64,000 bases of DNA from contig JAUYQQ010000015.1 in assembly GCA_030697165.1 (NCBI GenBank), positions 356,645 to 420,644 of the forward strand, in the 5' to 3' direction. Each line of letters starts with the position of its first letter. Position 1 is the stretch's first letter. The notes under the pieces are model-generated. The model was not told the origin of the DNA. It was given only the letters and a program-made list of their open reading frames with translations, and did not search any database. Shown in pieces: positions 28,607-57,803 of the stretch. The DNA comes from Acidobacteriota bacterium. GTDB lineage: Bacteria > Acidobacteriota > Vicinamibacteria > Vicinamibacterales > UBA2999. Made by a program: the position numbers and the translations under genes.

Positions 28607-31542
<2,936 letters not shown>

Positions 31543-31543
<1 letters not shown>

Positions 31544-34500
31544 CAGAAGGCGTGCCTCTTGCGGACTTCGAGCGCGTAGGTCCGGTCCTCGTTCTGCGAG
31601 AGGACCCACGACAGGGTGTCGCTTTCGTCGAACTCGAGCAGGATGATCTGGTCGTACTCGGCCGACGACAGGCTGCGCGCGTAGGTCAGGAAGACCCGGC
31701 TCGAAATGCGCTTGCCGATGGTGACGCGCGCCGTGGGATTGAGGTTGACCCGAGCCGACTGCTGGTACGGATCATTGAGGAGCGGCGTGATCTGGAAGGT
31801 GTCGACGCCGAAAGTCTGCTCCACCACGCGGCCAACTTCCGCCGAGAGGGCGCCGGTCAGGGCGCGCGTGGCCCGCGCCTCGACCAGGCGCTGCTCCTGT
31901 TCGTTCGGCCGCTGCAACCGCGCCAGCTCCATGTCGCCACTGATCGCCTGATCGCTGAACAGCAGGGTCAGGATGTCAAGCGTCTGCAGTGGCGGATCGG
32001 ACTGGAACTGCGGCTGCAATCGGTCGGTCGTGCCCGCCATGCGCATGGTGATGCGGTAGGTTTGCCCCGGCACCCGGACGCGCGTCTCGGCTTCGATGTC
32101 GAAGAACGGCTGAATTCGTTCGGAGTTCGCGAAGTCGAGGCTGCCGCGCGTCACCTGGTAGCGGCGTCCCTCGAATTCGACATCGCCGCGGACGATCTCG
32201 GCGCTGCCAAAGACCAGCGGCCGGTCCAGCGTTCCGCGCAGGGTCAGGTCCGCGCTGGCAACGATGCGAGCCTGGTCGTTGTCGATGCGGAGCGTCGACG
32301 GCGCCAACAGCCGGACGTCAAACCGCAGCGCCGACGGGGCCGCCACCTGGCCCTCCACGGTTGGCGGCGCCGGGTCGCCGCCGCCGAGGCCGCTGAACAG
32401 GCCGCCGGAGGTATCGATGCCGCGGGTCCAGCTCGCGCTTTTGACGTTGACCGTGCCGGTGACCACCGGCGACGCCGCGGGTCCCTGCAGCGCCAGTGTG
32501 ACGTCCACCAGCGAACGCATCCCTTCGGGATAGCGCAGGCGCATGTCCTGCCCGATTGCCGTCACGTCGAACTCGCTCAGCTGATACGCGGCCAACCCGA
32601 CCCGCCCGCCAAACTGCACCGCCCCGCCGCCGAGCCGCGCGCCGAGCCCGTCCAGGCGCACGCCGCTTGCGTCGAACGTGACGATCCCGTTCACCTCTTC
32701 AAGGGCGTTCGGGAACGACAGCTGGCGGATCCGGCCGCCGGTCAGGAGCGCGTTGCCGGCCACCACCGGTTCGCGCGCCGTGCCGGTAATGCGCGCCGTC
32801 ACCTCGGCGCGGCCCGAGCTGCGGACGTCTGCGACAAACCCCTGCAACACCGCCAGGTTGGCGGCGCCGTTGGCCTGCAGCGCCAGTGACTGATCGCGCA
32901 GGTCGACCGTGCCCGACAGATCCAGCTCGGTGCCGTCGCCGACCATGCGCAGCGAATCCACCACCAGCGACTGCCCCTCGATGCTCAAGCGCATCGGCGC
33001 GGCGTTGCGCAGCTGGTAGTCGACCAGCCGCAGATCCACGGATTCGACCGTCGTGTCGACGCGCAGGGCATCGGGGTTGTACAGCTCACCGACGACGCGA
33101 ATGGTGCCGCTGGCAATGGCGGAGGTAAACGGCGAGAACCCCGGCTGGAGCGCGCGGACGAACGGGTCGAGCGACGAATCGCTGATGCGGAAGGACATCT
33201 CCGCATCCATCTCGTCGTTCAGTTCGATGCGGCCGGTGCTCGACACGGCCAGTCGCGCCGAGGCAACTTCCATCTCGTAGGTCATCAACAGGCCGCGCAT
33301 CGACAACCGCCCCGACATCTGCCCAACGCCCTCGTCGCCGAAGAACAGGTCGCTGGCGCTGAAGCGCACATCGTAGCGAGGCGCCTCGAAGGTGCCGGTG
33401 CCGGTGGCGCTGAAGTCCAGCGACCCGAAAATGGTCGGGTAGCCGGGATAGGTCGTGAGCGCCAGGGTTTCGACGGCGATATTCCGGCCGTCGGCGTCGA
33501 ACGAGTAGGTGCCGCTCCAGCCGACGTAGGCCGCGCCGGTAATCTGTCCGCCGCCTTTCGACATTTGCAGCGCGTCGAGCCGGACCCCGGCGCCCTCGAA
33601 GCGCAACCCGGTTTCGAAGGATGCAAATGGCTCGTCGTAGGCAATGCCGCGGGCAACCGTCATGCGGCCGAAACCGTGCGGCCCCTCGTAGCGGCCAAAG
33701 ACATGAAAGTCGCCAGACAGGGGGCCGTCAACCTCGTAGTCCTGCAGGTCGAAGGCCTCGCGCAAGTCAGCCAGCTCCCTGTCCGTGATGCGAATGCGGG
33801 CGTCAATTTCCTCGCCGCCGTCGGCGCGCGGGTAGCCGAGCGAGAACTGGCCGGTCACGTCCATGCGCGACAAGCCCGAGCGGATCACGGCACGGCTGAC
33901 GTTCGCATACGAGTTCTCGACCACGAAGTCGCCGTCGATCTCGCCCCAGTTCACGTCCCACGCGCGCATCTCCTGGCCGACCAGCCGGCCTTCGATGCGC
34001 GGCCGCCTGAACGCGCCGAGCAGCACGCCCTCGAAGCGGCCCACCCCATCGATCGGGATGGCCTGGGTGGTCGCGCCAAAGGCCGTCATGATGCCGGCCA
34101 GCAGGCGGTCGCTTTCCTGCCAGTCGCGGGTCGTGACACGGAACGGGATCTTCGAGCGTTCGCCGTAGGCGGTGGCGCCCTCAAACGCCACGTAGGTGTC
34201 TTCGGTGAAGACCTGGCTCGGTTCGAAGCGCAGGGCCTCGGGATCAAACGCGTAGGTGAGGTTCCCGGCCACCGGCAGCGGCGCCATCGGCGTGTGGTTG
34301 CTGAATGGGCCCTGGACGAGATAGCGGGCGCGCGCGGCCGCCGCGGCGCCCGCCGGCAGTTGCGGTCCCTGTAACGCCACGCCCGCCGGCGCGGCCAAGG
34401 TCACGGCGCCCTCGCCGGCACGATCGGCAAACCGACCGAGCGTCCACGCCATGGTGTTGTGGCCGCTGGCGCGACCTGCCACCCGCAAGCCGCGCATCTG

Positions 34501-35649
34501 GAACACATCCGACAATGCCGCCAGGTCGACATCCGCGTACTGCGCATCGAACTCGGCGCGCGCCGGCGTCGTCGGATTGCCGAGCGGCGCCATGAGGTAG
34601 CGAAACTGGGTCGTGCCACCGTAAAACCCCGAAGTCGCGTGCGTGACCTCCATGCGATCGCGGACCCAGACCACCGACCCGGCCAGGTTGGGAAAACGGA
34701 AATCGTTGACGCCGGCTTCCACGCTCGAGAAGTCACCTTTCAGTTCACGGCCACCCGTGAACATGTGGAAGGTGCCGTTGAAGAAACCCTCGCCCGACAG
34801 GCTGAACGTGTCATTAGCGAAGAAGATCTCTCGCATGCGCGGGAACTGCATGCGGGACTTCACCTGGTACAACTGCTCGGGCCACTTCGCCGGCTCGATC
34901 ACGCCCGAGATCTGCGAGACCGCGCCATCGGTAATCAGGTCGATGCGATCGAACACGATCTTGCCGTCGGTCAGCTTGAATGCGGCCGCGAGTTCGGCCT
35001 TCATCGGCACGTACTTCTGGATCTTGAGATCGCCGTCATTGAACTTCATCGTGCCGCGGTACGTGCCGACCTTGGCCACCGTGACATCGAGATTCGGGGC
35101 GACCATGAACCAGTCGGAGCCGTAGTCGTTGACGACCAGCTCGCCGCGATGGGCGCGCACGTACTGCAGGGTCGTGACCACCAAACCCGGGCCGGTGCGC
35201 GGCGCCCGGGGCGGCCCGGTAACGCGCGGAAAGGTCTGGCGGCCATCAGGGAACGACTCGATCACCATGCGCCAGTCAGTCATCTCGATCTCGTCGAGCA
35301 GGACCTCGCGGCCGAACAGCGCGCCCCAGGTGAGGGACACCTCGATGCGCTTGGCGGTGAGCCAGGGCGGCTCGCCGGGCAACATGCCGTCGATGCGCAG
35401 GTCTTCGATCACGAACCGGCCGCGCGCCAGGTGCACCCCGAGTCGGCCAATGGTCAGCTTGCGCTCGAGCCAGTTGCCGCCCGCGGTCTCGGCGCGCGCC
35501 CGCAACGCCGGCCCCAGGTCGATGGTCAGCGTCGAGACGACCACGACGGCCACGACGATGCCGATGACCAGGGCAAAGCGGCGTGCCAGGCGATACCCGA
35601 TCGCGAATGCGGAACGCAGCTGGTTACCGATCTGCGTCATCCTGCTCAT
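31543..35649 (-). CDS. tamB: TamB-like translocation/assembly protein (DUF490)
   Basis: This 1368-residue protein has an N-terminal membrane helix (FALVIGIVVAVVVVS) and a long beta-rich AsmA/TamB repeat body. The C-terminal DUF490 region includes VFGSAEIVRGDVEFEGRRYQ, LDILTLLFSDQAIS and GKRISSRVFLTYARSL. TamB spans the periplasm and takes part in outer-membrane protein insertion or lipid transport. Its stop overlaps the start of the Omp85 gene, giving the tamB-tamA partnership in one transcript. Two candidate starts (MSR at 35649, MTQ at 35640) lie close together. It follows the biotin-carrier gene by 9 bp. Confidence 0.9.
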
Positions 35650-35658
35650 CGGCCGCCG

Positions 35659-36186
35659 TTACTCCACGACCAACAGGGTCGCGCCCGCGTCCACCGACTG
35701 CCCTTCGGCCACCGACACCTCGCGCACGCGGCCATCGCGGACCGCGCGCAGCTCGTTCTCCATCTTCATGGCCTCGACCACCACCAGGCCCTGCCGCGCC
35801 GTCACTTCGTCGCCGGCCTTCACCAGCAACCGCACGATCTTGCCGGGCATGGGCGCGAGAATGCGCTGCGGGCCCGCGCCGACGGCGGCGCCGGCCTTCT
35901 TCTGGCGCCCGAACGCGCCGGCCTGCCGGACCTGCACCGGGATGACCCGGCCGGCCACGTGCACGTCAAACTCACCCGCCGCGCGCCGGGTCGCAAGCGA
36001 GGCGTCCACGCTCGTCACCGGCGCCGAGCCGTCGACCGGCCCCACCAGCAGCGACAGCGTCATGTCGCCGACGCGCCGCGCATCGACCACCAGGGTGCGG
36101 CTGCCAATGGCCACGTGCAGCAGCGGGCCCTTGCGCGTCACCGAGACCAGGTGCGCGCCCTGGCCGACGGCAATCTCGTAGGTCAT
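35659..36186 (-). CDS. Biotin carboxyl carrier subunit of an acyl-CoA carboxylase
   Basis: This 175-residue protein ends in a biotinyl domain with the biotinylation site VEAMKMEN and the APMPGKI region. The N-terminal 90 residues resemble the biotin-carboxyl-carrier linker of propionyl/methylcrotonyl-CoA carboxylases. It carries CO2 from the biotin carboxylase to a carboxyltransferase. Its start overlaps the stop of the biotin carboxylase gene by 4 bp. No carboxyltransferase gene is next door; one lies at 57989-59530. Confidence 0.92.
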   Translation of the reverse strand: MTYEIAVGQGAHLVSVTRKGPLLHVAIGSRTLVVDARRVGDMTLSLLVGPVDGSAPVTSVDASLATRRAAGEFDVHVAGRVIPVQVRQAGAFGRQKKAGAAVGAGPQRILAPMPGKIVRLLVKAGDEVTARQGLVVVEAMKMENELRAVRDGRVREVSVAEGQSVDAGATLLVVE

Positions 36187-37691
36187 CGCAGCGCCTCCGC
36201 CCGGCCGGCCTGCTTCCAGACGCTGATCGGTTCGGCGGCCGGTGCGGCCGTGGCTGCACGGGTGAACAGGTGCACGGCGGCGGCCACCATCGCGAGTTCC
36301 TCGTGACTGGCGTCAATCACCTGCAGCGTCCCGCTGCCGGGCGCGCCCATCTTGCGGTCGATAAAGGTGGTGTCGAACCGCCCGGCGATGAAGTCGTCAT
36401 CGTCCAGGATCCACTGGAAGAACGGGATGGTGGTGCGGATGCCGCGCACTTCGTACTCGGAGAGCGCCCGCTTCATGCGGGCAATGGCGTGCTCGCGGTT
36501 CTCGCCCCACGTAATGAGCTTCGAAATCATCGGGTCGTAGAAGATCGGCACTTCGCCGCCTTCGTAGGCGCCGCTGTCGTCACGCACGCCCGGGCCGTGC
36601 GGCACGCGCAAGCCCTGGATGCGGCCGGGTGATGGCAGGAAGCCGTTCTCCGGATCCTCGGCGTAAATGCGGCACTCGATCGCGTGGGCGCGAGGGCTCA
36701 GCAACGCTTCCGGATCGAGATCGAGCCGCTCGCCCCTGGCAATACGAATCTGCCACTGGACCAGGTCCACTCCCGTGACCATCTCGGTGATGGGATGTTC
36801 GACCTGCAGGCGGGTGTTCATCTCGAGGAAATAGAACGAACCGTCGCTGTCGAGCAGGAACTCGATGGTGCCGGCGTTGGTATAGCCGACCGTCCGGGCG
36901 ACGGCGGCCGCGGCCGACGTCATCTGCCGTCGCAGCGCCGGTGAGACCGCAAGCGACGGGCTCTCCTCGACAACTTTCTGGTGCCGCCGCTGGATCGAGC
37001 ATTCGCGCTCGACGAACGGCAGCACGGTGCCGTGGTGATCGCCGAGCAACTGCACTTCGATGTGCCGCGAGGCGAGAATGCGCCGCTCGAGGTAGACGGC
37101 GCCATCGCCGAAGGCCGATTGCGCTTCAGAGCGCGCGGCGCGGAGCGCCGCCGGCAATTCCGCTGGCGACGACACCATGCGCATGCCCTTGCCGCCACCA
37201 CCCGCCACCGCCTTGAGCATGAGCGGGTAGCCAATGCGCTCGGCCACCGTCAACACCTCGGCGTCAGAGGTCTGCTCGCTGAGCGGCTCTTCCGTGCCGG
37301 GCACGACCGGTACGCCGGCCTTGATCGCGGCCTGCCGCGCCGCGGTCTTGCTCCCCATCAGCGCGATCGCTTCCGGCGTTGGGCCGATGAACACGAGGCC
37401 GGCATCGCGGCACGCCGCCGCGAAATCCTCGTTCTCGGCGAGAAAGCCATACCCAGGGTGCACCGCGTCGGCGCCGGACTGCTTCGCCGCGTCGATGATC
37501 GCGTCGATTCGCAGGTAGCTGTCGCGAGGCGCGCTCGGACCCACCGGCCAGGCTTCGTCGGCCAGCCGGACATGCAACGCCGCACGATCACATTCCGAGT
37601 ACACGGCCACGGCGCCAATACCCATGTCGCGACAGGCACGAATCACGCGCACGGCAATCTCGCCGCGATTGGCGATCAGGATCTTCTTCAT
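36183..37691 (-). CDS. Biotin carboxylase subunit of an acyl-CoA carboxylase
   Basis: This 502-residue protein is a complete ATP-grasp biotin carboxylase. It shows KILIANRGEIAVRVIRACR, VHPGYGFLAEN, the glycine-rich AVAGGGGKGMR loop, ERECSIQRRHQKVVEE and FLEMNTRLQVEHP. It carboxylates biotin on the carrier protein using ATP and bicarbonate. The carrier is encoded by the next gene (4-bp overlap), as in propionyl/methylcrotonyl-type carboxylases. TAGAAT lies 18 nt before the ATG. It is divergent from the ABC transporter. Confidence 0.93.
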   Translation of the reverse strand: MKKILIANRGEIAVRVIRACRDMGIGAVAVYSECDRAALHVRLADEAWPVGPSAPRDSYLRIDAIIDAAKQSGADAVHPGYGFLAENEDFAAACRDAGLVFIGPTPEAIALMGSKTAARQAAIKAGVPVVPGTEEPLSEQTSDAEVLTVAERIGYPLMLKAVAGGGGKGMRMVSSPAELPAALRAARSEAQSAFGDGAVYLERRILASRHIEVQLLGDHHGTVLPFVERECSIQRRHQKVVEESPSLAVSPALRRQMTSAAAAVARTVGYTNAGTIEFLLDSDGSFYFLEMNTRLQVEHPITEMVTGVDLVQWQIRIARGERLDLDPEALLSPRAHAIECRIYAEDPENGFLPSPGRIQGLRVPHGPGVRDDSGAYEGGEVPIFYDPMISKLITWGENREHAIARMKRALSEYEVRGIRTTIPFFQWILDDDDFIAGRFDTTFIDRKMGAPGSGTLQVIDASHEELAMVAAAVHLFTRAATAAPAAEPISVWKQAGRAEALR

Positions 37692-37746: not shown

Positions 37747-39261
37747 GTGGTCGGGCACAAGGCCGTGACACTCAGTTGGCGCGTGTTCTCTCGCTCGCTT
37801 CAGGAGTCGTCTGGCGGCGTCTGGTTGTTCGTCGCCGTGGCGCTGCTGGCGGCGTCGACCATGGGCCAGTCGTCCGCGCGGATGGGCGAAGCGCTGGCGC
37901 TGAACGAGATCCCACGCAGCCAGGCTCCGCTCGTCCTCGGGCTGTGGCTCTGGGCGACCTTCATGGGGGCGTTTGTCTACGCGGTCGCGGCCGGCGAGTT
38001 GTCGTTCATTCGCGCCCTGCTCGCGGATTTCGCGACGCGCCCGTTGTCGCACTGGCAGGCGTTTCTGGCCGTGCAGGCCGTCACCACGGGCGGTCCACAT
38101 TCGCTGGCTGTGCTCTCGGCCGGCTTGCCCTGGCTCGTGCTCCTTGGCAGCTGGCTGCACGGCACCGCGCTGCTTGCAGCAGTCGCCGCCACGTTGGTAC
38201 TCCTGCGCCTGCCGGTCTCGCTGCTGCTGATCGGTTCGCGAGTGCTCAGCGCTTCGCTGGCCAGCGTAGCCGTGATGGTCGGAGCGACTTGCGCGGTGGT
38301 AACCGCGTTGTGGGTGGCTGCGCCGGACCGGTTGACGGCGTGGTCACCGCCCGGGCTGGTCGTGCGCATCGTGATGAATGAAGCCGCCCTCGGCGCATGG
38401 ACCGGCCTGGTGGTGTGGACATTCGCGCTCGCGGCGATCGAATTTTGGTCGGTACGAATCAAGGCCGCGCCACGAGCGGCACCGGTCGCAACCGCACGTC
38501 CCCTTCCGCCGATATCAGCTTTCCCAGTGTGGCTCGCGCGCCTTTCCGGCTGCCATGCAACGCTGCTCCATGGCGAGTTGGTGCGGCTTAGCCGTTGGCG
38601 CCGATACCAGCTCTCGTGGCTCATGGGCGGGGTGTTGCTCGCGCTTGTGGGGGCGCGCCTGGACGAAAGCCCGGATTTGATACTCCCGCTGGTCTTCTCA
38701 CTCGTGCCGGTCCACGTCGGCACCAGCGTGCTTGCGAACCTGTTCGCCACGGACCGGGCGGGGTTCCACGCCTTCCTGATGGCGCCCCTCGGGATGCGCG
38801 CGGTGGTACGTTCCAAGATCGTCGCCGTCCTGCTCTTCACCCTGGTCGCGCAGGCCGCGGGATCCGCATACTTGGTGGCGCACGCGGTGCCATGGCCGCT
38901 CGTGACGGCCGGCGTGATCCTGGCGGCTGGCCTGTTCATGTGGGCGGCAGCCGTCGGCCTGCTAACCAGCGTGCTCTTTCCGTCGCCGTCGGATCCCCAC
39001 ACGGTGGGCGGTGCCCTGATCGGCACACCGGCGGTTCTCGTGGTCGCGGTCGCCAGCAGCCTGTACCTGGGGCCAAGCCTCTACCTGGCATACGCGCTCC
39101 AGACCGGACGGTGGACTTCGGTCGCATGCGCGTTCGCCGCGCTGGCGCTGGTCGGCGCTGCCGCGGCAGCACTGGCCGCGGGGTCGCGCCTGGTGCCCCG
39201 CTTGATCGCCACACGGCAAGAAGTCATGCTGCAGGCCTTGGCGACCGGAACCCGCGCATGA
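37747..39261 (+). CDS. ABC transporter membrane protein (permease-like)
   Basis: This 504-residue protein has roughly 12 hydrophobic segments. It starts with GTG and overlaps the downstream ATPase gene by 4 bp (ATGA). It has no motif that identifies the substrate. The arrangement of a permease encoded next to a single ATPase resembles ABC-2-type exporters. I read it as the membrane partner of the ATPase at 39258; an internal duplication is possible but not shown. Confidence 0.65.
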   Translation: MVGHKAVTLSWRVFSRSLQESSGGVWLFVAVALLAASTMGQSSARMGEALALNEIPRSQAPLVLGLWLWATFMGAFVYAVAAGELSFIRALLADFATRPLSHWQAFLAVQAVTTGGPHSLAVLSAGLPWLVLLGSWLHGTALLAAVAATLVLLRLPVSLLLIGSRVLSASLASVAVMVGATCAVVTALWVAAPDRLTAWSPPGLVVRIVMNEAALGAWTGLVVWTFALAAIEFWSVRIKAAPRAAPVATARPLPPISAFPVWLARLSGCHATLLHGELVRLSRWRRYQLSWLMGGVLLALVGARLDESPDLILPLVFSLVPVHVGTSVLANLFATDRAGFHAFLMAPLGMRAVVRSKIVAVLLFTLVAQAAGSAYLVAHAVPWPLVTAGVILAAGLFMWAAAVGLLTSVLFPSPSDPHTVGGALIGTPAVLVVAVASSLYLGPSLYLAYALQTGRWTSVACAFAALALVGAAAAALAAGSRLVPRLIATRQEVMLQALATGTRA

Positions 39262-40040
39262 TCGAGGCCCGCGACATTCACAAGAGGTACGCCGACGTAG
39301 CCGCCCTGTCGGGCGTGTCGATCGCGATCGGCGCCCACCAGGCCCTGGGGCTGGTCGGGCCGAACGGCGCGGGAAAGTCGTCGTTGCTGCGCATCCTGTG
39401 CGGCGTGAGTCGTCCCGACGCCGGCTCGGCGCAGCTCGATGGGCACGATCCGGCGCACCATCCACGGCCGGCGCGGCGGCGACTCGGATGTGTCCCGGAG
39501 CAGCCCCCTTTGTTCGATCTGCTCACGGGTGGCGAACACCTGATGTGGGTGGGCCGGGTCTACGACATTCCCGATTCGGTGCTGCGGGCCAGAATCGAAG
39601 AACTGGCGGCGGCGCTGGAACTGACCGATGCGCTGCCACGCCGCATTGCCGGCTACTCGAAGGGCATGCGCCAGAAGCTAGCCTTCGCCGGCGCGCTGCT
39701 CCACGACCCGCGGCTGCTGATGCTGGATGAACCGTTTGAAGGGGTGGATGTGGTCGCGGTCGATGCGATGAAGGCCATCATCCGGCAGTTCGTCGAACAC
39801 GGCGCCGCGGTGCTGCTCAGTTCGCACATCCTCGGCCTGGTCGAGGACGTCTGCACCGAGTTCGCCGTCCTCAACGCCGGCCGGGTTGTCTTTGCAGGCG
39901 ACCGGCCACAACTGGCGCTCGAGGCCGCCAAGCTGAGGCACGAATCGTCGGGCCGGCCGCTCGAGACCGTGTTTCTCGACCGCGTGGCGCGCGATCGGGT
40001 CGCCCGGCGGCTGACAACGGTGGCCAACGGGCCATCTTAG
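39258..40040 (+). CDS. ABC transporter ATP-binding protein
   Basis: This 260-residue ATPase starts at the ATG at 39258. Walker A is GPNGAGKSS, the signature is YSKGMRQKLAFAG and Walker B is LLMLDEPFEGVD, followed by LLSSHILG (H-loop). It resembles ABC-2 export ATPases. The start overlaps the permease stop, indicating coupled translation. It converges with the sortase gene, whose stop overlaps the last bases. Confidence 0.92.
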   Translation: MIEARDIHKRYADVAALSGVSIAIGAHQALGLVGPNGAGKSSLLRILCGVSRPDAGSAQLDGHDPAHHPRPARRRLGCVPEQPPLFDLLTGGEHLMWVGRVYDIPDSVLRARIEELAAALELTDALPRRIAGYSKGMRQKLAFAGALLHDPRLLMLDEPFEGVDVVAVDAMKAIIRQFVEHGAAVLLSSHILGLVEDVCTEFAVLNAGRVVFAGDRPQLALEAAKLRHESSGRPLETVFLDRVARDRVARRLTTVANGPS

Positions 40041-40624
40041 CCGCCGGCACCACCGGGTCGGTTCACCCGCTCGGCATGGACGACGAAGCGCTGCGGCGCG
40101 GGTCCGACATACGAAAAGGGATAACAGGTGATCAGGGTCAGGGTGTCACGCGTTCGCGGAGCCAGCACGCGCAGGTCATCCGGCTGCACGATCGCCGTGC
40201 CGGTCACCTGGTAGTGAAACTCCTCGCGCGTCGTCCGGAACGTGATCGCGTCGCCAACGGTCACGCGCTTGAGCGGCCTGAAGAGGCCGTCGCGGTGGCC
40301 CGCCAGTGCGCTGTTGCCCGGTTGCCAGGGCAGCGGCGTATCGGGCAGGTGTCCCACCGACGCCTGCAACGCCGTTTCGTCATCACCCTCGACGACCGGC
40401 GTCGACAGTCGCAGACGCGGCACTTCCAGCATGCCAACCAGGCTGCCGGCAGCGACGGCCTGCGGCACGTTCGCCGCGGCAGCGCGCTCGAATTGGGCGA
40501 CGTTTTCGCGCCGCAGACGGTTGCCCTCGATCGTGACGTAGCCATACGTGCCCAAGCATCCCAGGCCGACGCCGAGCAGGCCGAACTCGAACGCCGTCGC
40601 GAGCCAACCGCGTGAGCCGGTCAC
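40037..40624 (-). CDS. Sortase (class D-like), membrane-anchored
   Basis: This 195-residue protein has an N-terminal membrane anchor (about 12-32) and a sortase catalytic domain. The His is in SALAGHRDGLF (H110), the Cys in LITCYPF (C167) and the Arg in APQRFVV (R179), all in family order. It is a transpeptidase that would cleave an LPxTx-type signal and attach the protein to a surface amine. The GTG start overlaps the VWA-protein stop by 4 bp. A candidate substrate with an LPATAS signal is encoded two genes upstream. Sortases are uncommon in diderms. Confidence 0.88.
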   Translation of the reverse strand: MTGSRGWLATAFEFGLLGVGLGCLGTYGYVTIEGNRLRRENVAQFERAAAANVPQAVAAGSLVGMLEVPRLRLSTPVVEGDDETALQASVGHLPDTPLPWQPGNSALAGHRDGLFRPLKRVTVGDAITFRTTREEFHYQVTGTAIVQPDDLRVLAPRTRDTLTLITCYPFSYVGPAPQRFVVHAERVNRPGGAGG

Positions 40625-41565
40625 GGCTGGCCCCCACCTGGTTCGGAGAGGTAACCATCGCGAGTCCGTACCCGCAGCACCTGGCCATCCGGTGCGCGAA
40701 CGTAGACGCGGACGGTGCGGCGGCGCGGCCCGGAGGCGTGGCCCGCCCCGGCCGTCGGTGTGTAAGCCAGCGTGTAGGCACTGCGGATATCACGGGCAAT
40801 CCGTTCCAGCGTCGGCGGCACCTCGTTCAGGTTGCGGGGTTGAAACGACTCGCCGCCGGTTTCGCGCGCCAGGCGCCGGAGCAGGCCGGGGTTGCCGTCT
40901 CGGACCAGCGGGTCGATCAGTGCGACGGTGTAGATCACGGCGTCAGCCGCGCGCGCATCCCGCACGATCTGTTCCTGGCTGGTAGTGCTGGCATTGTCGC
41001 CACCGTCGCTCACCAGGATCAGCACCTGCCGGGTGTGCACGCCGCGGCGGAGGCGGCGCAACGCCTCGGCGACGCCGTCATAGAGTGCGGTCATGCCGCG
41101 GGCGGTGATGGCGCTGGCCATGGCGGCCGCGAACTCATCGAGCCGCGTCGTGGCGATCACGGCCGGCGCCCACGCCTCGCGCACGTGCTCGTTGACTGCC
41201 AACGCGAAAACTTCATCTTGTGGGTGGCTGTTGCGGGCCAGCGCGACCGCCGCGGCAACCACGCGTTCGCGGCTGGGGGCCATGCTGTTGCTGTTGTCGA
41301 TCACCAACCCGATGCTGGCGGGCACGTCGACCCCCGAAAACAACGTCACGTCCTGCGGCTGGCCATCGTCGATCACGGTGAACGCATCCCGTGACAGCCC
41401 TGAGACGTAGCGGCCGCCGTCGCGGACAGAGACGTGCAGGACGACGAGCCGCGACTCGGACTTGAACACCGGTTGTTCAACGGGAGCCGGCACCACGACC
41501 TGCGCCGCCGGCATTCCGGCGCAGAGCGCCAGCAGCACGAAGATCGCGGGAGGTGCGTTGGTCAC
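40621..41565 (-). CDS. Exported VWA-domain protein (VWFA-related, Acidobacteriota type)
   Basis: This 314-residue protein has a signal peptide (FVLLALCAGMPAAQ), then an N-terminal segment with YVSGLSRDAFTVIDDGQPQ. A von Willebrand factor A domain follows, with the MIDAS motif DNSNS (D90, S92, S94) and LVSDGGDN later on. The domain order fits the VWFA-related family common in Acidobacteriota. VWA domains bind metal and mediate protein contacts. It is encoded between the sortase and the putative substrate and may assist anchoring or act as a surface partner. It has no sorting signal. GTG start. Confidence 0.78.
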   Translation of the reverse strand: MTNAPPAIFVLLALCAGMPAAQVVVPAPVEQPVFKSESRLVVLHVSVRDGGRYVSGLSRDAFTVIDDGQPQDVTLFSGVDVPASIGLVIDNSNSMAPSRERVVAAAVALARNSHPQDEVFALAVNEHVREAWAPAVIATTRLDEFAAAMASAITARGMTALYDGVAEALRRLRRGVHTRQVLILVSDGGDNASTTSQEQIVRDARAADAVIYTVALIDPLVRDGNPGLLRRLARETGGESFQPRNLNEVPPTLERIARDIRSAYTLAYTPTAGAGHASGPRRRTVRVYVRAPDGQVLRVRTRDGYLSEPGGGQP

Positions 41566-41582
41566 AGTGCAACCAGTGCGCG

Positions 41583-41609
41583 AGGAGCCGGCAGGTGCCG
41601 GCCCCCCTC
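41583..41609 (-). terminator. Hairpin between the sortase substrate and VWA genes
   Basis: GCCGGCA (41587-41593) and TGCCGGC (41596-41602) pair, flanked by GAGG/CCTC. It could attenuate transcription between the substrate gene and the downstream VWA and sortase genes, favouring more substrate than enzyme. Confidence 0.45.
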
Positions 41610-41619
41610 GCAGTATGAA

Positions 41620-42348
41620 CTAGCGGACCCGACGCGCGCGCAGCAGGCGGCTGCCGAGCAGCGAGCCAATGCCGACCAGCGCCAGCAGGGGCAGCAGGCT
41701 GGCGGTTGCGGGAAGCTCCGTGCGTTCGACACGGGCGGCCGCGGTCGGCGCCGTCTGGGCGCGCTCCGTCACCACGGGTTCGGAGGCGCGCTCGGCCACG
41801 ACCGGCGCGGCCTCGGCGGTGATGGCGGCGGGGGCATCGGCACCGGTACGGTCGACGCGCGTCATGTCCTGTTCGGCGACGGTGTCCGCGACGGGGGCTT
41901 CGGTCTTGGTCGTCAAAACCGACTCGCCGGTCCGTGCCGCCAGCTTCATGGCCTGCGATCGCGGATAGAGGAACTCATGCCCGGTCGTGCGGCCGGGATA
42001 GAACCACACCTTGACGGCCTGCGGCCCGGTTTCCGGGCCTTCCATGAAGCGCACCTGCGGCTCGTCCGACGCCTTGTCGAGCGTGTAATTGGGAATCGCC
42101 AACAGGGTCGCGTGTAACGTCTTGCGGTCCTGGCTCATCACTCTGACAACATGCCGATTGGTCGCACCGTCGGCCAACGCGAACAGGTAAGTGCCGGCAG
42201 GCAAGGTCGTGCCCGGCAGCTCAACCGCCTGGCTGAACGTGAAGAAAGTGTCCTGGTTGGGCAGACCGCCTTGCGCGGATGCGGTAAGCGGGAACATGGT
42301 CGCCGCGACGAAGGTGCACGCGAGCGCCACTTTACGAATCGATGTCAT
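41620..42348 (-). CDS. Secreted protein with C-terminal LPATAS sortase-sorting signal
   Basis: This 242-residue protein has an N-terminal signal peptide (cleavage near TASAQ) and a globular part of about 110 residues including FTFSQAVELPGTTLPAGTYLF. A low-complexity Ala/Pro/Thr/Glu linker follows. The C-terminus is a tripartite sorting signal: LPATAS beginning near residue 212, a hydrophobic helix (LLPLLALVGIGSLLG) and a basic tail RARRVR. This is the hallmark of a sortase substrate. The sortase is encoded two genes downstream on the same strand. A strong ribosome-binding site (GAGGAGGA) precedes the ATG. The globular domain is otherwise unrecognised. Confidence 0.82.
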   Translation of the reverse strand: MTSIRKVALACTFVAATMFPLTASAQGGLPNQDTFFTFSQAVELPGTTLPAGTYLFALADGATNRHVVRVMSQDRKTLHATLLAIPNYTLDKASDEPQVRFMEGPETGPQAVKVWFYPGRTTGHEFLYPRSQAMKLAARTGESVLTTKTEAPVADTVAEQDMTRVDRTGADAPAAITAEAAPVVAERASEPVVTERAQTAPTAAARVERTELPATASLLPLLALVGIGSLLGSRLLRARRVR

Positions 42349-42566: not shown

Positions 42567-43049
42567 CTAGGGCATTCGTTGCGAATCGTCGAACGTCACC
42601 ACGACCGCGCCCTTGGCGCCCGGGATCACCGCCTCCGGCGCGCCCGTGCTCGACGCATAGATGCCAATCGGCGAACCCGGGGCCGGCGGCGCGTTCCCGC
42701 TCATCCCGCCCTTCTCGTCGTATGCCACCGCAATCCACACCCGCTCCACACCCACCTCGAACGTCGCCGTCGCGCCGTTCTTGTCAACTGACATCTCGGC
42801 AATCGGCATCGAGTCGGCGCCAATGTCGGGCGAATCAAACAGCCACACCCAGACTCGATGGCTGCCATCGACGGTGCCGCTTCCCTTGTAGTTGACCGTC
42901 ACCGCCACTGCGCCTGCGGCCGCGCCGTCCGGGGCCGCGGCGTGAATCCGGACCGTGTCACCGAACACACCTGCGGCCATCATGGCCACGACGGCCAGGG
43001 CGGCCTTGCCCGCCATGGCCCTGGCGAAGGTGGGAATGCTCTTCATCAT
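42567..43049 (-). CDS. Small secreted protein of unknown function
   Basis: This 160-residue protein has a signal peptide (AGKAALAVVAMMAAGVFG). The predicted beta-rich mature part includes VTVNYKGSGTVDGSHRVWVWLFD, AVAYDEKGG and a C-terminal VVVTFDD. I recognise no family. The double ATG allows a start at 43049 or 43046; GGGAG lies a few nt upstream. It is upstream of the sortase module in the same direction, but the 218-bp gap and hairpin suggest a separate transcript. Confidence 0.6.
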   Translation of the reverse strand: MMKSIPTFARAMAGKAALAVVAMMAAGVFGDTVRIHAAAPDGAAAGAVAVTVNYKGSGTVDGSHRVWVWLFDSPDIGADSMPIAEMSVDKNGATATFEVGVERVWIAVAYDEKGGMSGNAPPAPGSPIGIYASSTGAPEAVIPGAKGAVVVTFDDSQRMP

Positions 43050-52932: not shown

Positions 52933-55900
52933 CTAACCCGTGACCGTAATCGTGACCGTGGCCGTCGCCGTGCCGCCGTAAATATCAGTGATGCGGTAGG
53001 TGAAGCTCATGGTGCCGGTCGACTTCGACGCCTTGTAGGTAATCGTGCCGTCGGCGTTCACCGTCGCGGTGCCGGTGCCCTTGGCGGGCTTGCTGACGAG
53101 TGTCACCGTGAGCGGCGAGCCGTTGGCGACATCGTTCGACAGCACCGCGATGGTCACGCTCTGGCGCGTGGCCACAGTCGCCGCATCGTTAGCGGCGACC
53201 GGGGCGGGCGGTGGTAACACCGGCTGACCGTCCAGCGAGTTCCAGCGGCCGGGGCTGAGGACCGGCGGCGTGCCGCGTTGATCGTGAGGCACGCCGACGC
53301 TAACCTGCCCCGAGCACGACAGTGCTCCGTCGCTCGCGGTGTAGTCAATCAAGTAGACGCGACCATCGCCGAGGCCACTGCGTTCCGCGCGGACCCATGC
53401 CGTGGCGCCATTAGACTCGATGCCGCCATCCTGCATGGTGTTGCCCTGGCCGAGGCCATCCGTTGGCTCGTCCTGCCAAATCGAGGTAAAGCGAATGGTC
53501 AGCGGTTGGCCGTCGGGATCGGTAATGCCCGACAGCGTCACGTAGACCTTCCGGTGGTTCGGCGGCCACTGCAACAGGGCAGGCGAAACCGTCGCTGAAC
53601 ACACCGGGGGCAAGTTGCTCGGGACCACCGTGATCGTCACTGTCGCCGAGTTACTCGAGATGAGGGTATCGTGCGCCCGGTAAGTGAACGAGTCGCTGCC
53701 GTAGTAGCCAGGGTCCGGCGTGTAGACGAACGAGCCGTCCGGATTGAGCAACAGCGTGCCGTGGTTCGGTCCGGTCAGAAGGCTGGCCGTCAATGTCGCG
53801 TGGTCGACATCGCTGTCGCCGGCCAGCACGCCGGGCGCGGCCACCGTCAGCGTCCCGTCCTGACCGATGCTGAAGGCGTCGTTGACCGCCACCGGCGCGT
53901 CGTTCACGGCGGTGACGGTGATGGTCAAGGTTTGTGGCTCGCTGGTGTCCACGCCGCCATCGGCAACCCCGCCGTTGTCCTTCAGCAGCACGGTAATGGT
54001 CGCGGTGCCGAAGGCGTTGGCGGCCGGCGTATAGGTCAACGTGCCGCTGGCGGAGATCGCCGGCTGAACCGAGAACAGCGAGGGGTTCGGGTTGACCAGC
54101 TGGAACGTAACAGTCTGCGACGACTCGCCAGGTCCCGGACTGATCGCGGTCGCCCAGCTCATGCTCTGGGCTCCGGAATCTTCATCAACCGTCTGGGCCG
54201 CGCCACCGGTGAAGCTCGGGACGTCGTTCACGCCGGTCACCGTGATCGTGAAGGTCTGTGGCGCACTGGTATTGCTGCCACCGTTGAGCGTGCCGCCGTC
54301 GTCTGCGAGCAGAACCGTGACGGAGGCGGTGCCGAAGGCGTCGGGGGCAGGTTGGAAGGTCAAGGTGCCGTCAGCGGCCAACGCCGGCTGCGCGACAAAC
54401 AACGCGGTGTTCGTGTTCGTCACCGTGAAGGCGACGACCTGCGCCGACTCATCCACCGGGCCGGCCGTGATCGCCGTGGCCCACCCGACAAAGGTCTGCG
54501 CCCCGGAATCCTCGAGCACGGTGGGTGCGTTCCCGCGCGTGAAGCTGGGCGGGTCGTTGACCGGCGTGACGGTGATGGTGAACGTCTGGGGCGTGCTCGT
54601 GTCGACGCCGCCATTGGCCGTACCACCGTTGTCCTGAGCACTGACGGTCACGGTTGCTGAGCCGTTCGCGTTGGGTGACGGGGTGTAGCTCAACGTGCCG
54701 GTCGCGGATACCTGGGGTTGGCCTCCGGCCGTGAACAAGGTGCTGTTATCGTTCGACACGACGAACGACACCGTCTGCGTCTCGCCCGCTCCTGCGCTGA
54801 TCGCCGTCGCCCAATTGGCGACGTTCTGCGCGGCGGCATCTTCGGCCACCGTCTGATCCGGCCCCTTGGTAAAGCTCGGGGCATCGTTCACGCCGTCCAC
54901 CGTAATGGTGAACGTCTTGGCGGTACTGGTGTTGGTGGTGCCGCCGCCATCGTCTTGGGCCCGTACCGTCACCAGCGCCGTACCGGAGGTGTTGGCGGCC
55001 GGCTGATACGTCAGCGTGCCGTTGGCCGTAATGGCCGGCGCCACGGCGAACAAGGCGGGGTTGTCGTTCGAGACGAGGAAGGTCACCGTCTGCCCCGACT
55101 CGTCGGCAGGACCGGGGCTGATGCCCGTGGCCCAACCCGCCAGGGTTTGCAACGGGGCGTCCTCGATCACGGTCGGAGGCGCGCCGAGGGTGAAGCTCGG
55201 GGGATCGTTCACCGCGGTCACGGTAATCGTCACGGTGGCCTGGAGGCCGGACACCGAACCGTCATTCGCCCAGTAAGTGAAGGTGTCGGTGCCGTTAAAA
55301 TCGGCGTGAGGCGTGTAGTCAAACGAGCCGTCCGCGTTGAGCAGGAGCGTGCCGTGCGAAGGCGCCCAATCCATGGTCGCCGTCAGCGTGTCCCCGTCCG
55401 CGTCCGCGTCGTTGGCCAGGACGCCGCCGAGGGCTGCGACCGTGAGTTTGGTGTCCTCGCTGATCGTAAACGCATCAGGCATCGCCGTCGGCGGCCGGTT
55501 GAAGTTGTTAACGCGCCAGGTGAACGTCCACGAACTGGAGCTCGTAGAATCCGATTCAGTAACGCGGACCTGATGGCTTCCCTCGGACTCAAACGACAGC
55601 GTCCCGATAATCTTCCGGCCCGTGGGGTCGGTCGGATCGACCATGGCGCCGTCAGGCAGATCCGTCACGGTGTAGGTGAAGCCGGGCTGACCTGGGAGGA
55701 AGAACGGGACCAGGACGTCGCCCTCGGTGTTTTGACGGTTCGCGAAGCCCACCAATTCGATCGTGATGCGCCCGGTCCACCGTTTGGGCAGGGCCTCGTC
55801 GCGGGCAGACCAGACCCCGGCCTCGCTCTGGGTCCGGTAGTAGATCGTCGTGACGCCCGGTTGGCGTAAGGTCACGACCGCGCGTTGCGTCGGGGGCAAC

Positions 55901-57696
55901 GGGTCGCCCGTGTTGAGCACCGCCAGAAGGTCATTGCCGGTCTCATTGGTACCGACAATCTCGTACTCAATCTGCTGGATTCCGCCGGCATCACCCTCTG
56001 ATACGGCCGCATCCAGGTAGACGTCGAACTGGTAGTCGTTCGGGCCCACCTGCAGCATCGTCGTCACGCCCGATACCTGTGGCTCGTCACTCGGCGTTGC
56101 CGTGATGACCGGCGGCGGAGCCGAACAGTCCGCGATCTCGACTACTGTCTGAATCGGCTGTACGTCGGTCGTCTGCGGCGCCGTGGCGGTGGCCAGGACG
56201 GACACATTGCCCGGGGTCGTCGGTGCTGTCAGCGAGTAGGTATAAGCATAGGTCTCGAGTTCCTCGAGATCGACCGGCCCCGTGTTGGGACCCGTAATCA
56301 CCTGACCGCCGACCGTCAATGACGGTGTCGCACCCTCGACAGGCGGGCGGGTCGCCGGCACCGTCAAGCTGAACCGAAGCTGGTAAGGATCGCCAGCGCA
56401 AACGCCCGGCACCACCACGCCGCTGGCGTCCAGCACCTCGAGATTGTAAGCAACCAGGTTGCGCGTCTGCAGGACCCAGGCGCGGTAGAGGGTGACCGTA
56501 CCATCTTCGTTCGAGGCGTCATCCGAAACGGCAAGTTTCCCGGATGACGGCTCGACCGCGACGCCGTACGGCTGGCCTTTCAGCCCACCAGATTCTGATT
56601 CCGGTAGCGCAATCGAAAACAACGGATCAAGGGTGCTCTCGTCCGCACGCAGGCGATAGGCCACCACGCGGTTGTTCAGCGCGTCGGCCACGAACAGCCG
56701 GCCGCCAGCCGGATCGCCGCCGTCAGGTTGGAATGCGATGCCGAACGGCTCCGTGAATCTTTCGGTCTCGCCGCCGGCCGAGTCGCCAAACGTGAACAGC
56801 GAAGTCGGCTCCAAATCCGGTCCGTACGCGGTGATGTTGAACTCAAAGGTGTCAACCAGGAACAGGCGCGACCCGGACACGGGCGTCCCGGCATCGAATG
56901 CGACGCCAAAGGCTTCCCTCGTCCGACCATTGTTCGTCAACTGGCGGAACGGCGCCGATTCGGTGAAGTACCCCGTGCTCGAATCGAACTCGAAATCCTG
57001 ATTCCGGTACGCGAGGAGGGCGCCCGGATACTGCTGGCCAAACCCAACCGCCCAAGCGGCGGCAAACGTTCCCACGACGCTCAGGGTTGGGTCGGCGGTA
57101 TCGTCGGTCGTCAGACGGAATTTCGAACCGGGCGCCATGGACATCCCGTTGATGACCGCGATCTGACCTTCCGTGAGCTCGGGCGGTGTGGGATTTTCGG
57201 GCCAGTCGAGGAGCATCGTGAAGAGATGGCCCGCATCGACAGGGGTGCCCAGCGTGTCACAGGCGGGAATGTCGAACGCCATCACCCGGTTGACACTCGA
57301 ATCCGACACCAGGAGTGCTTGCTTCGTCACCGTCGTGGTGCCCGTGACTTCATCAACGTCGACCACCTCGAGGTCAACGACAGCCAGCTGATTTGGCACC
57401 AGTCCTTCGGAGTTGAGCAGCGTCACGGTGCAGCCGGGCGACGAGTCATCGGCGTACGCGATCAAGTTGCCCAAGTCGGCCTGGGCGGCATAGAGGGTCC
57501 CATTGGCATACGCGACGCCGCCCAGGAACCCAGGCAATTGGGACTCGCGACGCACACCGTACAGTTCGCCTTCGTACTTCTCCTGGAAGGTGCCGGCTTG
57601 AGCGGCCACGATAACGGCGACCAGCATCGCGACCACGGAGGCGCCTGCCAAGCTCCTCCCGAATCGGCTCGATAGATACCGTGATGGGGTTTTCAT
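52933..57696 (-). CDS. Giant secreted protein with cadherin-like (tandem) domains
   Basis: This protein of about 1587 residues (ATG at 57696; an ATG at 57717 is possible) has a signal peptide (SLAGASVVAMLVAVIVAAQA). An NHL/beta-propeller-like N-terminal half follows (GVAYANGTLYAAQADLGN; LFVADALNNRVVAYRL). Then come a cadherin-like block with LANDADADGDTLTATM, four near-identical modules of about 105-110 residues (VTAVNDPPSFT type), another cadherin-like block, a Cys-containing region and a last cadherin-like block. Such proteins are usually secreted adhesins or matrix proteins. There is no C-terminal sortase, PEP-CTERM or type I secretion signal I recognise. Confidence 0.8.
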   Translation of the reverse strand: MKTPSRYLSSRFGRSLAGASVVAMLVAVIVAAQAGTFQEKYEGELYGVRRESQLPGFLGGVAYANGTLYAAQADLGNLIAYADDSSPGCTVTLLNSEGLVPNQLAVVDLEVVDVDEVTGTTTVTKQALLVSDSSVNRVMAFDIPACDTLGTPVDAGHLFTMLLDWPENPTPPELTEGQIAVINGMSMAPGSKFRLTTDDTADPTLSVVGTFAAAWAVGFGQQYPGALLAYRNQDFEFDSSTGYFTESAPFRQLTNNGRTREAFGVAFDAGTPVSGSRLFLVDTFEFNITAYGPDLEPTSLFTFGDSAGGETERFTEPFGIAFQPDGGDPAGGRLFVADALNNRVVAYRLRADESTLDPLFSIALPESESGGLKGQPYGVAVEPSSGKLAVSDDASNEDGTVTLYRAWVLQTRNLVAYNLEVLDASGVVVPGVCAGDPYQLRFSLTVPATRPPVEGATPSLTVGGQVITGPNTGPVDLEELETYAYTYSLTAPTTPGNVSVLATATAPQTTDVQPIQTVVEIADCSAPPPVITATPSDEPQVSGVTTMLQVGPNDYQFDVYLDAAVSEGDAGGIQQIEYEIVGTNETGNDLLAVLNTGDPLPPTQRAVVTLRQPGVTTIYYRTQSEAGVWSARDEALPKRWTGRITIELVGFANRQNTEGDVLVPFFLPGQPGFTYTVTDLPDGAMVDPTDPTGRKIIGTLSFESEGSHQVRVTESDSTSSSSWTFTWRVNNFNRPPTAMPDAFTISEDTKLTVAALGGVLANDADADGDTLTATMDWAPSHGTLLLNADGSFDYTPHADFNGTDTFTYWANDGSVSGLQATVTITVTAVNDPPSFTLGAPPTVIEDAPLQTLAGWATGISPGPADESGQTVTFLVSNDNPALFAVAPAITANGTLTYQPAANTSGTALVTVRAQDDGGGTTNTSTAKTFTITVDGVNDAPSFTKGPDQTVAEDAAAQNVANWATAISAGAGETQTVSFVVSNDNSTLFTAGGQPQVSATGTLSYTPSPNANGSATVTVSAQDNGGTANGGVDTSTPQTFTITVTPVNDPPSFTRGNAPTVLEDSGAQTFVGWATAITAGPVDESAQVVAFTVTNTNTALFVAQPALAADGTLTFQPAPDAFGTASVTVLLADDGGTLNGGSNTSAPQTFTITVTGVNDVPSFTGGAAQTVDEDSGAQSMSWATAISPGPGESSQTVTFQLVNPNPSLFSVQPAISASGTLTYTPAANAFGTATITVLLKDNGGVADGGVDTSEPQTLTITVTAVNDAPVAVNDAFSIGQDGTLTVAAPGVLAGDSDVDHATLTASLLTGPNHGTLLLNPDGSFVYTPDPGYYGSDSFTYRAHDTLISSNSATVTITVVPSNLPPVCSATVSPALLQWPPNHRKVYVTLSGITDPDGQPLTIRFTSIWQDEPTDGLGQGNTMQDGGIESNGATAWVRAERSGLGDGRVYLIDYTASDGALSCSGQVSVGVPHDQRGTPPVLSPGRWNSLDGQPVLPPPAPVAANDAATVATRQSVTIAVLSNDVANGSPLTVTLVSKPAKGTGTATVNADGTITYKASKSTGTMSFTYRITDIYGGTATATVTITVTG
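53899..55230 (-). repeat. Four tandem ~325-bp coding modules in the giant gene
   Basis: The junction sequence encoding VTGVND or VTAVND recurs at about 53899, 54221, 54551, 54880 and 55202. This defines four units of 322-330 bp with high nucleotide similarity. They may expand or contract by recombination. Confidence 0.75.
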
Positions 57697-57803
57697 CGGC
57701 GTACTTTCATGACTCATCGCCTGACCCAGAGAAACAGCTCTGAGGAGGCCATCGCGTAGCCCATGTGTTCTTCTAGGCCAAATTGTCATATAGAGTCATG
57801 CAA

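Follow-up and report, generated by a model that had tools for sequence, protein, structure and literature searches.

Sortases and their substrates in monoderms and diderms

Sortases are commonly presented as a feature of monoderms. This study deals with a sortase module carried by an Acidobacteriota bacterium of the lineage Vicinamibacterales UBA2999 (GenBank assembly GCA_030697165.1). The window, that is the whole stretch of 64,000 nucleotides that was analysed (contig JAUYQQ010000015.1, positions 356,645 to 420,644), encodes a sortase, a protein with a VWA domain and a small secreted protein that ends in an LPATAS sorting signal. As judged from sequence comparisons, the sortase and the LPATAS protein, called the substrate below, are very probably a dedicated enzyme-substrate pair.

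Two described systems come closest. The nearest match for the enzyme and its substrate is the class D/LPxTA system of bacilli (B. cellulosilyticus; B. anthracis sortase C with BasI and BasH), in which, according to the accessible parts of two sources, the substrate gene is often adjacent to the sortase gene (PMC3617157, PMC3297441). The nearest in setting is the class GN system of marine proteobacteria, with the sortase TIGR03784 and the VWA-type target TIGR03788; the excerpt available of PMC3237569 describes a dedicated sortase with one adjacent LPXTG target, in Gram-negative bacteria. PEP-CTERM/exosortase, GlyGly-CTERM/rhombosortase and MYXO-CTERM/myxosortase also combine a tripartite C-terminal tag with a cognate enzyme, as is the case here (PMC3237569, PMC11980579).

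In the portion of PMC1586193 that is accessible, sortases are confined to monoderms, with two exceptions: proteobacteria that form a small group, and a Chloroflexus protein in which one region resembles a sortase. The corresponding portion of a 2020 paper states that no strictly negibacterial phylum is known to have a sortase (PMC7203096). This confinement is at odds with the counts obtained here: a sortase is found in 80 of the 396 genomes of a phylum sample, drawn evenly from the larger group, and the phylum is inferred to be diderm. With about one fifth of the sampled genomes carrying a sortase, the window's enzyme is not an isolated oddity. Among the papers listed by searches of the open PubMed Central literature, none deals with a sortase-substrate pairing in Acidobacteriota, as judged by title or abstract start. 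For Solibacter, a table of PMC3174227 contains the row "Sortase 6 1 6.0".

Architecture of the module

The module is transcribed in the order substrate, 54-base gap with a hairpin, VWA protein and sortase (40037-42348). Its features are the following:

41620-42348, minus strand: substrate gene, 242 aa, with a signal peptide (by eye), an N-terminal domain, a linker and the LPATAS sorting signal
41929-42273, minus strand: N-terminal domain of the substrate, residues ~26-140 (alignment of 24 homologues)
41698-41715, minus strand: LPATAS motif, with predicted cleavage at Thr215/Ala216 (conservation in homologues)
41623-41697, minus strand: remainder of the sorting signal, a hydrophobic helix followed by the basic tail RARRVR (sequence)
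~41580-41611, minus strand: strong RNA hairpin in the gap between the substrate and VWA genes (-39.4 kcal/mol, z -4.57)
40621-41565, minus strand: VWA gene, 314 aa, secreted, TIGR03436, with the MIDAS metal-site pattern
40621-40624, minus strand: GTGA, where the VWA stop overlaps the sortase start
40037-40624, minus strand: sortase gene, 195 aa, with an N-terminal hydrophobic helix (PF04203)
40295-40297, minus strand: catalytic His110
40124-40126, minus strand: catalytic Cys167
40088-40090, minus strand: catalytic Arg179

The initial annotation had described the three open reading frames (ORFs) in this interval, the GTGA coupling of the VWA gene to the sortase gene, a hairpin 3' of the substrate gene, the residues His110, Cys167 and Arg179, and a C-terminus composed of LPATAS, a hydrophobic helix and RARRVR. 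All these elements are present where they had been placed. The three residues align with those of B. anthracis SrtD (2ln7) and show no variation in an alignment of sortase domains (55 of 55). The alignment comprised the window's sortase (P0001) and 54 relatives, among them Paenibacillus sequences; L050 was removed because it is short, and L052 and L107-L109 did not enter the alignment. Here and below, P0003 is the window's substrate, and L and G numbers designate loci and genomes of relatives. The hairpin does not qualify as an intrinsic terminator of the textbook type, since no T-run lies downstream of it.

Co-occurrence of the sortase and the sorting signal

The sorting signal was searched for in relatives with A1, a 37-position profile made from 27 signals, and the substrate with A2, a full-length profile made from 24 substrates. 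The rows of both were chosen by motif pattern, and those of A1 come from motif-bearing sortase neighbours in the order. The number of first-look candidates scored per genome was at most 47 (A1, order), 19 (A1, phylum) and 16 (A2, order).

The A1 signal is present at <=0.001 in 58 of the 396 genomes of the phylum sample. All 58 also bear a sortase, and the signal is found in none of the 316 sortase-less genomes (Fisher 1e-51). When the order from which the profile derives is left out, a sortase is found in 47 of 47 signal-bearing genomes. Among the 162 genomes of the order, 30 give an A1 match below 1e-5, followed by a gap to 0.004, and 29 of these 30 have a sortase. The tagged form occurs without a detected sortase only in G084, where the contig with the substrate and VWA genes breaks off 173 bases past the VWA gene, at the place where the sortase would be expected.

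Most signals of the phylum sample (61/74) have a sortase at a distance of up to 5 kb. The remaining 13, distributed over 10 genomes, are more than 5 kb away or on another contig, and the 10 genomes are all sortase-bearing. Since these remote signals occur only in genomes that have a sortase, the association seems to be more than an effect of linkage.

Sortase loci were gathered from 43 genomes of the family (14 with a match), 162 genomes of the order (39 with a match, 38 of them above the cut-off) and two named relatives. A signal-bearing protein adjoins 29 of 44 sortase loci, a count made without L107 and L108, which do not match the window's sortase; in 7 of the 15 misses, a contig end lies <=750 bases upstream. 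The window's genome has one sortase and one A1 match at <=0.1 (47 of 55 candidates scored), which fits the compact, autonomous module proposed in the initial annotation.

The substrate and its tail

Leu, Pro and Thr are invariant in 27/27 signals (A1) and 24/24 substrates (A2), and Ser occupies the last LPxTxS position in at least 90% of the 24 substrates, but the rows were preselected for the motif. Among the substrate-matching ORFs of sortase loci, which were chosen without regard to the motif, 26 of 28 have LPxT near the C-terminus; the two that do not are a gene fragment (L092) and a remnant with a contig end inside the motif (L003). The motif is therefore conserved among orthologues, with one exception seen (L191, discussed below). 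This conservation, together with the co-occurrence of signal and sortase, led us to reject a chance motif.

P0003 is above the cut-off of no NCBIfam or Pfam family; the tag profile also serves to pick out candidate substrates. The LPXTG anchor models PF00746 and TIGR01167 do not match P0003 and match 5 and 6 of the 24 homologues at 0.1, respectively; the PF00746 cut-off is passed by L087 and L211, two of the seven tagged proteins tested. DUF2911 matches the N-terminal domain of the substrate at 0.0017, below the cut-off, and at 0.1 it is matched by 8 of the 24 homologues; the domain is perhaps distantly DUF2911-like. Its fold model is unreliable (predicted local distance difference test, pLDDT, of 56.8, from a two-row alignment), and a search of the PDB sequences with the substrate profile gave a single match, at 1.7. 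The linker is rich in Ala, Thr, Glu and Val, and in the 24 homologues the segment between the domain and LPxT varies in both length and sequence.

The same kind of tail is found on other N-terminal domains, in the sortase neighbours L087 and L096. Tagged proteins are also encoded far from the sortase in sortase-bearing genomes: L195-L197, which are alike by eye, L199, which resembles the window's substrate, and L198 (5222-5845), a DUF6152 protein with an LPSTAS tail, on a contig other than that of the sortase of G035. At L085 (4703-5858), a single VWA-sortase pair is preceded by a tandem of tagged proteins. The tail of L221, from the phylum member G484, is nearly identical to that of Granulicella aggregans L006, a species in which the sortase gene immediately follows the substrate gene. 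This likeness, the TIGR03436 match of the VWA protein and the two best named sortase relatives point to Acidobacteriota as the phylum of the window. Divergent MPxT[AG] tails are carried by the sortase neighbours L186, L189 and L190, in genomes that have no signal match.

The N-terminal domain also exists apart from the sortase. A2 matches occur in 42 of the 162 genomes of the order, 13 of which, G084 among them, have no detected sortase; some matches consist of the tail alone. Five A2-matching proteins of sortase-less genomes (L205-L209) end without an LPxT tail, the A2 matches of G075 run off contig ends, and those of the sortase-less G021, G040, G042, G069, G104 and G140 cover the front or the middle of the profile and not the tail. 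So it appears to be the tail, more than the domain, that follows the sortase.

Classification of the sortase

The sortase matches PF04203 of Pfam at 8.2e-34 (116.5 bits for a gathering cut-off of 26.6). AlphaFold2 predicts with confidence a sortase fold with a long N-terminal helix (pLDDT 88.4). A Foldseek search of the PDB with this model returned 138 matches at <=0.001, of which the best 50 are all sortases. The first is C. perfringens sortase D5 (4d70, 9.7e-14); pilus-type class C sortases fill most of the following ranks among these 50, and B. anthracis SrtD has rank 26. The class is thus not fixed by the fold alone, because sortase D5 comes first and is followed by many class C sortases.

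The sequence profiles place class D far above class C (1.3e-41 vs 1.1e-22). Regarding the curated models, the sortase passes NF058671 (LPxTATN-specific class D) marginally, with 142.3 bits over the full length and 140.8 for the domain against a cut-off of 140, and misses NF033746 (class D subfamily; 135.4 vs 165). The label "class D-like" given in the initial annotation is right, though marginal, with one class D model passed and one failed. Membership of class GN was rejected (TIGR03784, 83.4 bits for a cut-off of 158.25). In the tree, the sortases of Acidobacteriota and Paenibacillus fall apart with a support of 94, which does not reach the starred level, and the tree leaves many of its forks without resolution. 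A sortase that is 51% identical to the window's is encoded at L038 (4911-5792), with no adjacent substrate or VWA gene and no signal match in its genome, G023.

Acceptor of the substrate and alternative explanations

The host is taken as diderm because the window has genes for Omp85 (PF01103, 28607-31609) and TamB (PF04357, 31543-35649); LptD (PF04453), a marker of an outer membrane of the lipopolysaccharide type, gave no match in the window's genome. The MurE of this genome carries DNPR, which we take to be the mark of a MurE that adds diaminopimelate (DAP), and the amine of DAP is predicted to be available in the host.

General sortase chemistry suggests the following sequence of events. The signal peptide would direct the export of the substrate, and the C-terminal helix would retain it in the inner membrane. 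Cys167 of the inner-membrane sortase would attack the Thr-Ala bond of LPAT/AS to give a thioester, the cleavage site and the thioester being inferred from the family. An amine would resolve the thioester, most likely that of meso-diaminopimelate, which has a free amino group in the peptidoglycan precursor. The outcome would be a protein linked to the wall, with a flexible linker that keeps its N-terminal domain at a distance; in a diderm, this product would be periplasmic by default and would reach the surface, as proposed in the initial annotation, only if the linker carries it outward.

In the accessible part of PMC3297441, B. anthracis sortase C cuts LPNTA between Thr and Ala and uses m-Dpm. 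This use of m-Dpm and the DNPR of MurE favour peptidoglycan, which, if sortase and substrate are a pair, is the likelier acceptor. With moderate confidence, we propose a dedicated diderm sortase system, with one enzyme and one detected substrate, in which LPAT/AS would be cleaved and the protein transferred most likely to meso-DAP peptidoglycan.

Several observations weigh against this proposal. At the thresholds used, no signal is found in 22 of the 80 sortase-bearing genomes of the phylum sample (0.001) and in 10 of the 39 of the order (1e-5). Near six sortases (L038, L043, L094, L104, L088 and L050), the same-strand ORFs have no substrate-like tail, and only stray motifs are seen, in frames unlike substrates (a 111-aa frame in the case of L050). 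L191 (1468-2673; G498, outside the order) is a substrate homologue located directly before a sortase without any LPxT tail; the signal match of G498 is on another contig. The matches within the order are circular, A1 having been built from motif-bearing sortase neighbours of that order, and some of the signals found on "another contig" may be sortase neighbours across an assembly break. A neighbouring VWA gene is missing at six of the 29 sortases that adjoin a signal protein. Lastly, the fold search, which was made with a predicted model, does not favour class D over class C.

The VWA protein matches TIGR03436 (155.4 bits, cut-off 81.25) and not TIGR03788, the marine sortase target (23 vs 551.65). 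The MIDAS pattern is present in 25 of the 29 VWA ORFs of sortase loci, including that of the window, and the four failures (L005, L048, L051 and L086) are short or cut. The VWA protein lacks a sorting signal and is for this reason probably a partner and not a substrate; it is probably bound through its metal site, although this role is a guess. A VWA gene adjoins 27 of the 44 sortase loci by the rule of the script, and two more, L100 and L101, on reading. This frequent association is consistent with another acceptor: instead of using peptidoglycan, the sortase may link the substrate to a second protein, possibly forming conjugates with the VWA partner, or to a component of lipid nature or of the outer membrane. 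The predominance of pilus-type class C sortases in the Foldseek results after the first match points in the same direction, as do the TamB and Omp85 genes near the module (TamB is also found in G005). We consider such an acceptor possible, but less probable than peptidoglycan, given the six signal-associated sortases devoid of a neighbouring VWA gene and the sequence profiles, which put class D well above class C where the fold does not decide.

It could also be that the enzyme only clips its substrate, water resolving the thioester and the domain being released into the periplasm or the medium. Although peptidoglycan is only a predicted acceptor, this is unlikely, since known sortases are mainly transpeptidases and the DAP amine is predicted to be available. 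That LPATAS and the helix form an ordinary membrane anchor next to an unrelated sortase is highly improbable: tripartite tails can be plain anchors, P0003 matches no anchor family and L191 is a sortase neighbour without a tail, but LPxT is kept even though the adjoining linker has no fixed sequence, and in the phylum sample the signal is confined to sortase-bearing genomes.

Returning to attachment to peptidoglycan, one may speculate, with considerable doubt, that a covalent protein-to-envelope route is widespread in Acidobacteriota, with class D-like sortases acting on LPxT[AG]S tags. The linkers would let wall-bound domains and VWA partners tether the envelope or reach the outer membrane, as a functional counterpart of Braun's lipoprotein with a different chemistry. 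Since 58 of the 80 sortase-bearing genomes also carry the tag, what the sortase attaches proteins to under the outer membrane becomes testable.

Genomic neighbourhood, gain and loss

In the genus, a sortase is present in two of nine genomes, and the seven others have neither a sortase nor a match to the substrate profile, i.e., the sortase and the substrate are jointly present or jointly absent. The gene order in the window is HAD phosphatase, 160-aa protein, module, ABC transporter and accC. In G006 and G004, which do not have the module, the 160-aa protein comes directly before accC. In G002, G003 and G008, the marker found closest before accC is the HAD gene. The site between the markers and accC holds ~2.6 kb of other DNA in G007, and it is cut in G001. 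In G005, the module adjoins accC. From these gene orders, the module seems to be a cassette whose gain or loss took place at a single site.

The ABC permease and ATPase pair of the window (37747-40040, plus strand) is opposed to the module and separates the sortase from accC, unlike in G005. The genes of Omp85, TamB, BCCP and accC are consecutive (28607-37691, minus strand), and the order accC-BCCP-TamB is also kept in G005. The 160-aa protein (42567-43049, minus strand) matches no curated family of NCBIfam or Pfam. Further away, a 1618-aa protein (52933-57789, minus strand) combines Big_9 repeats with cadherin-like ones; its end matches CshA weakly and has no LPxT tail.

Comparison with known systems

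The module shares with the class D systems of bacilli the sortase fold, the catalytic residues and the LPxTA motif. In the Paenibacillus loci, the protein encoded just upstream of the sortase has LPxTA in 12 of 13 cases and LPxTG in one (L007). Unlike the bacillar systems, the module has a diderm host, a VWA partner and a substrate domain of no named family, and the signals are mostly LPxT[AG]S, compared to LPxTATN or LPxTAEPWYN in bacillar class D. A VWA domain is involved in class GN systems as well, but here the VWA domain and the sorting signal are on separate proteins, and the sortase falls outside the TIGR03784 model. Exosortase, rhombosortase and myxosortase are polytopic membrane proteins, whereas the enzyme of the module is a classical cysteine sortase. 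The module is thus a variant, in a diderm phylum, of known sortase-substrate systems, a kind of anchoring that has hardly been described in this group.

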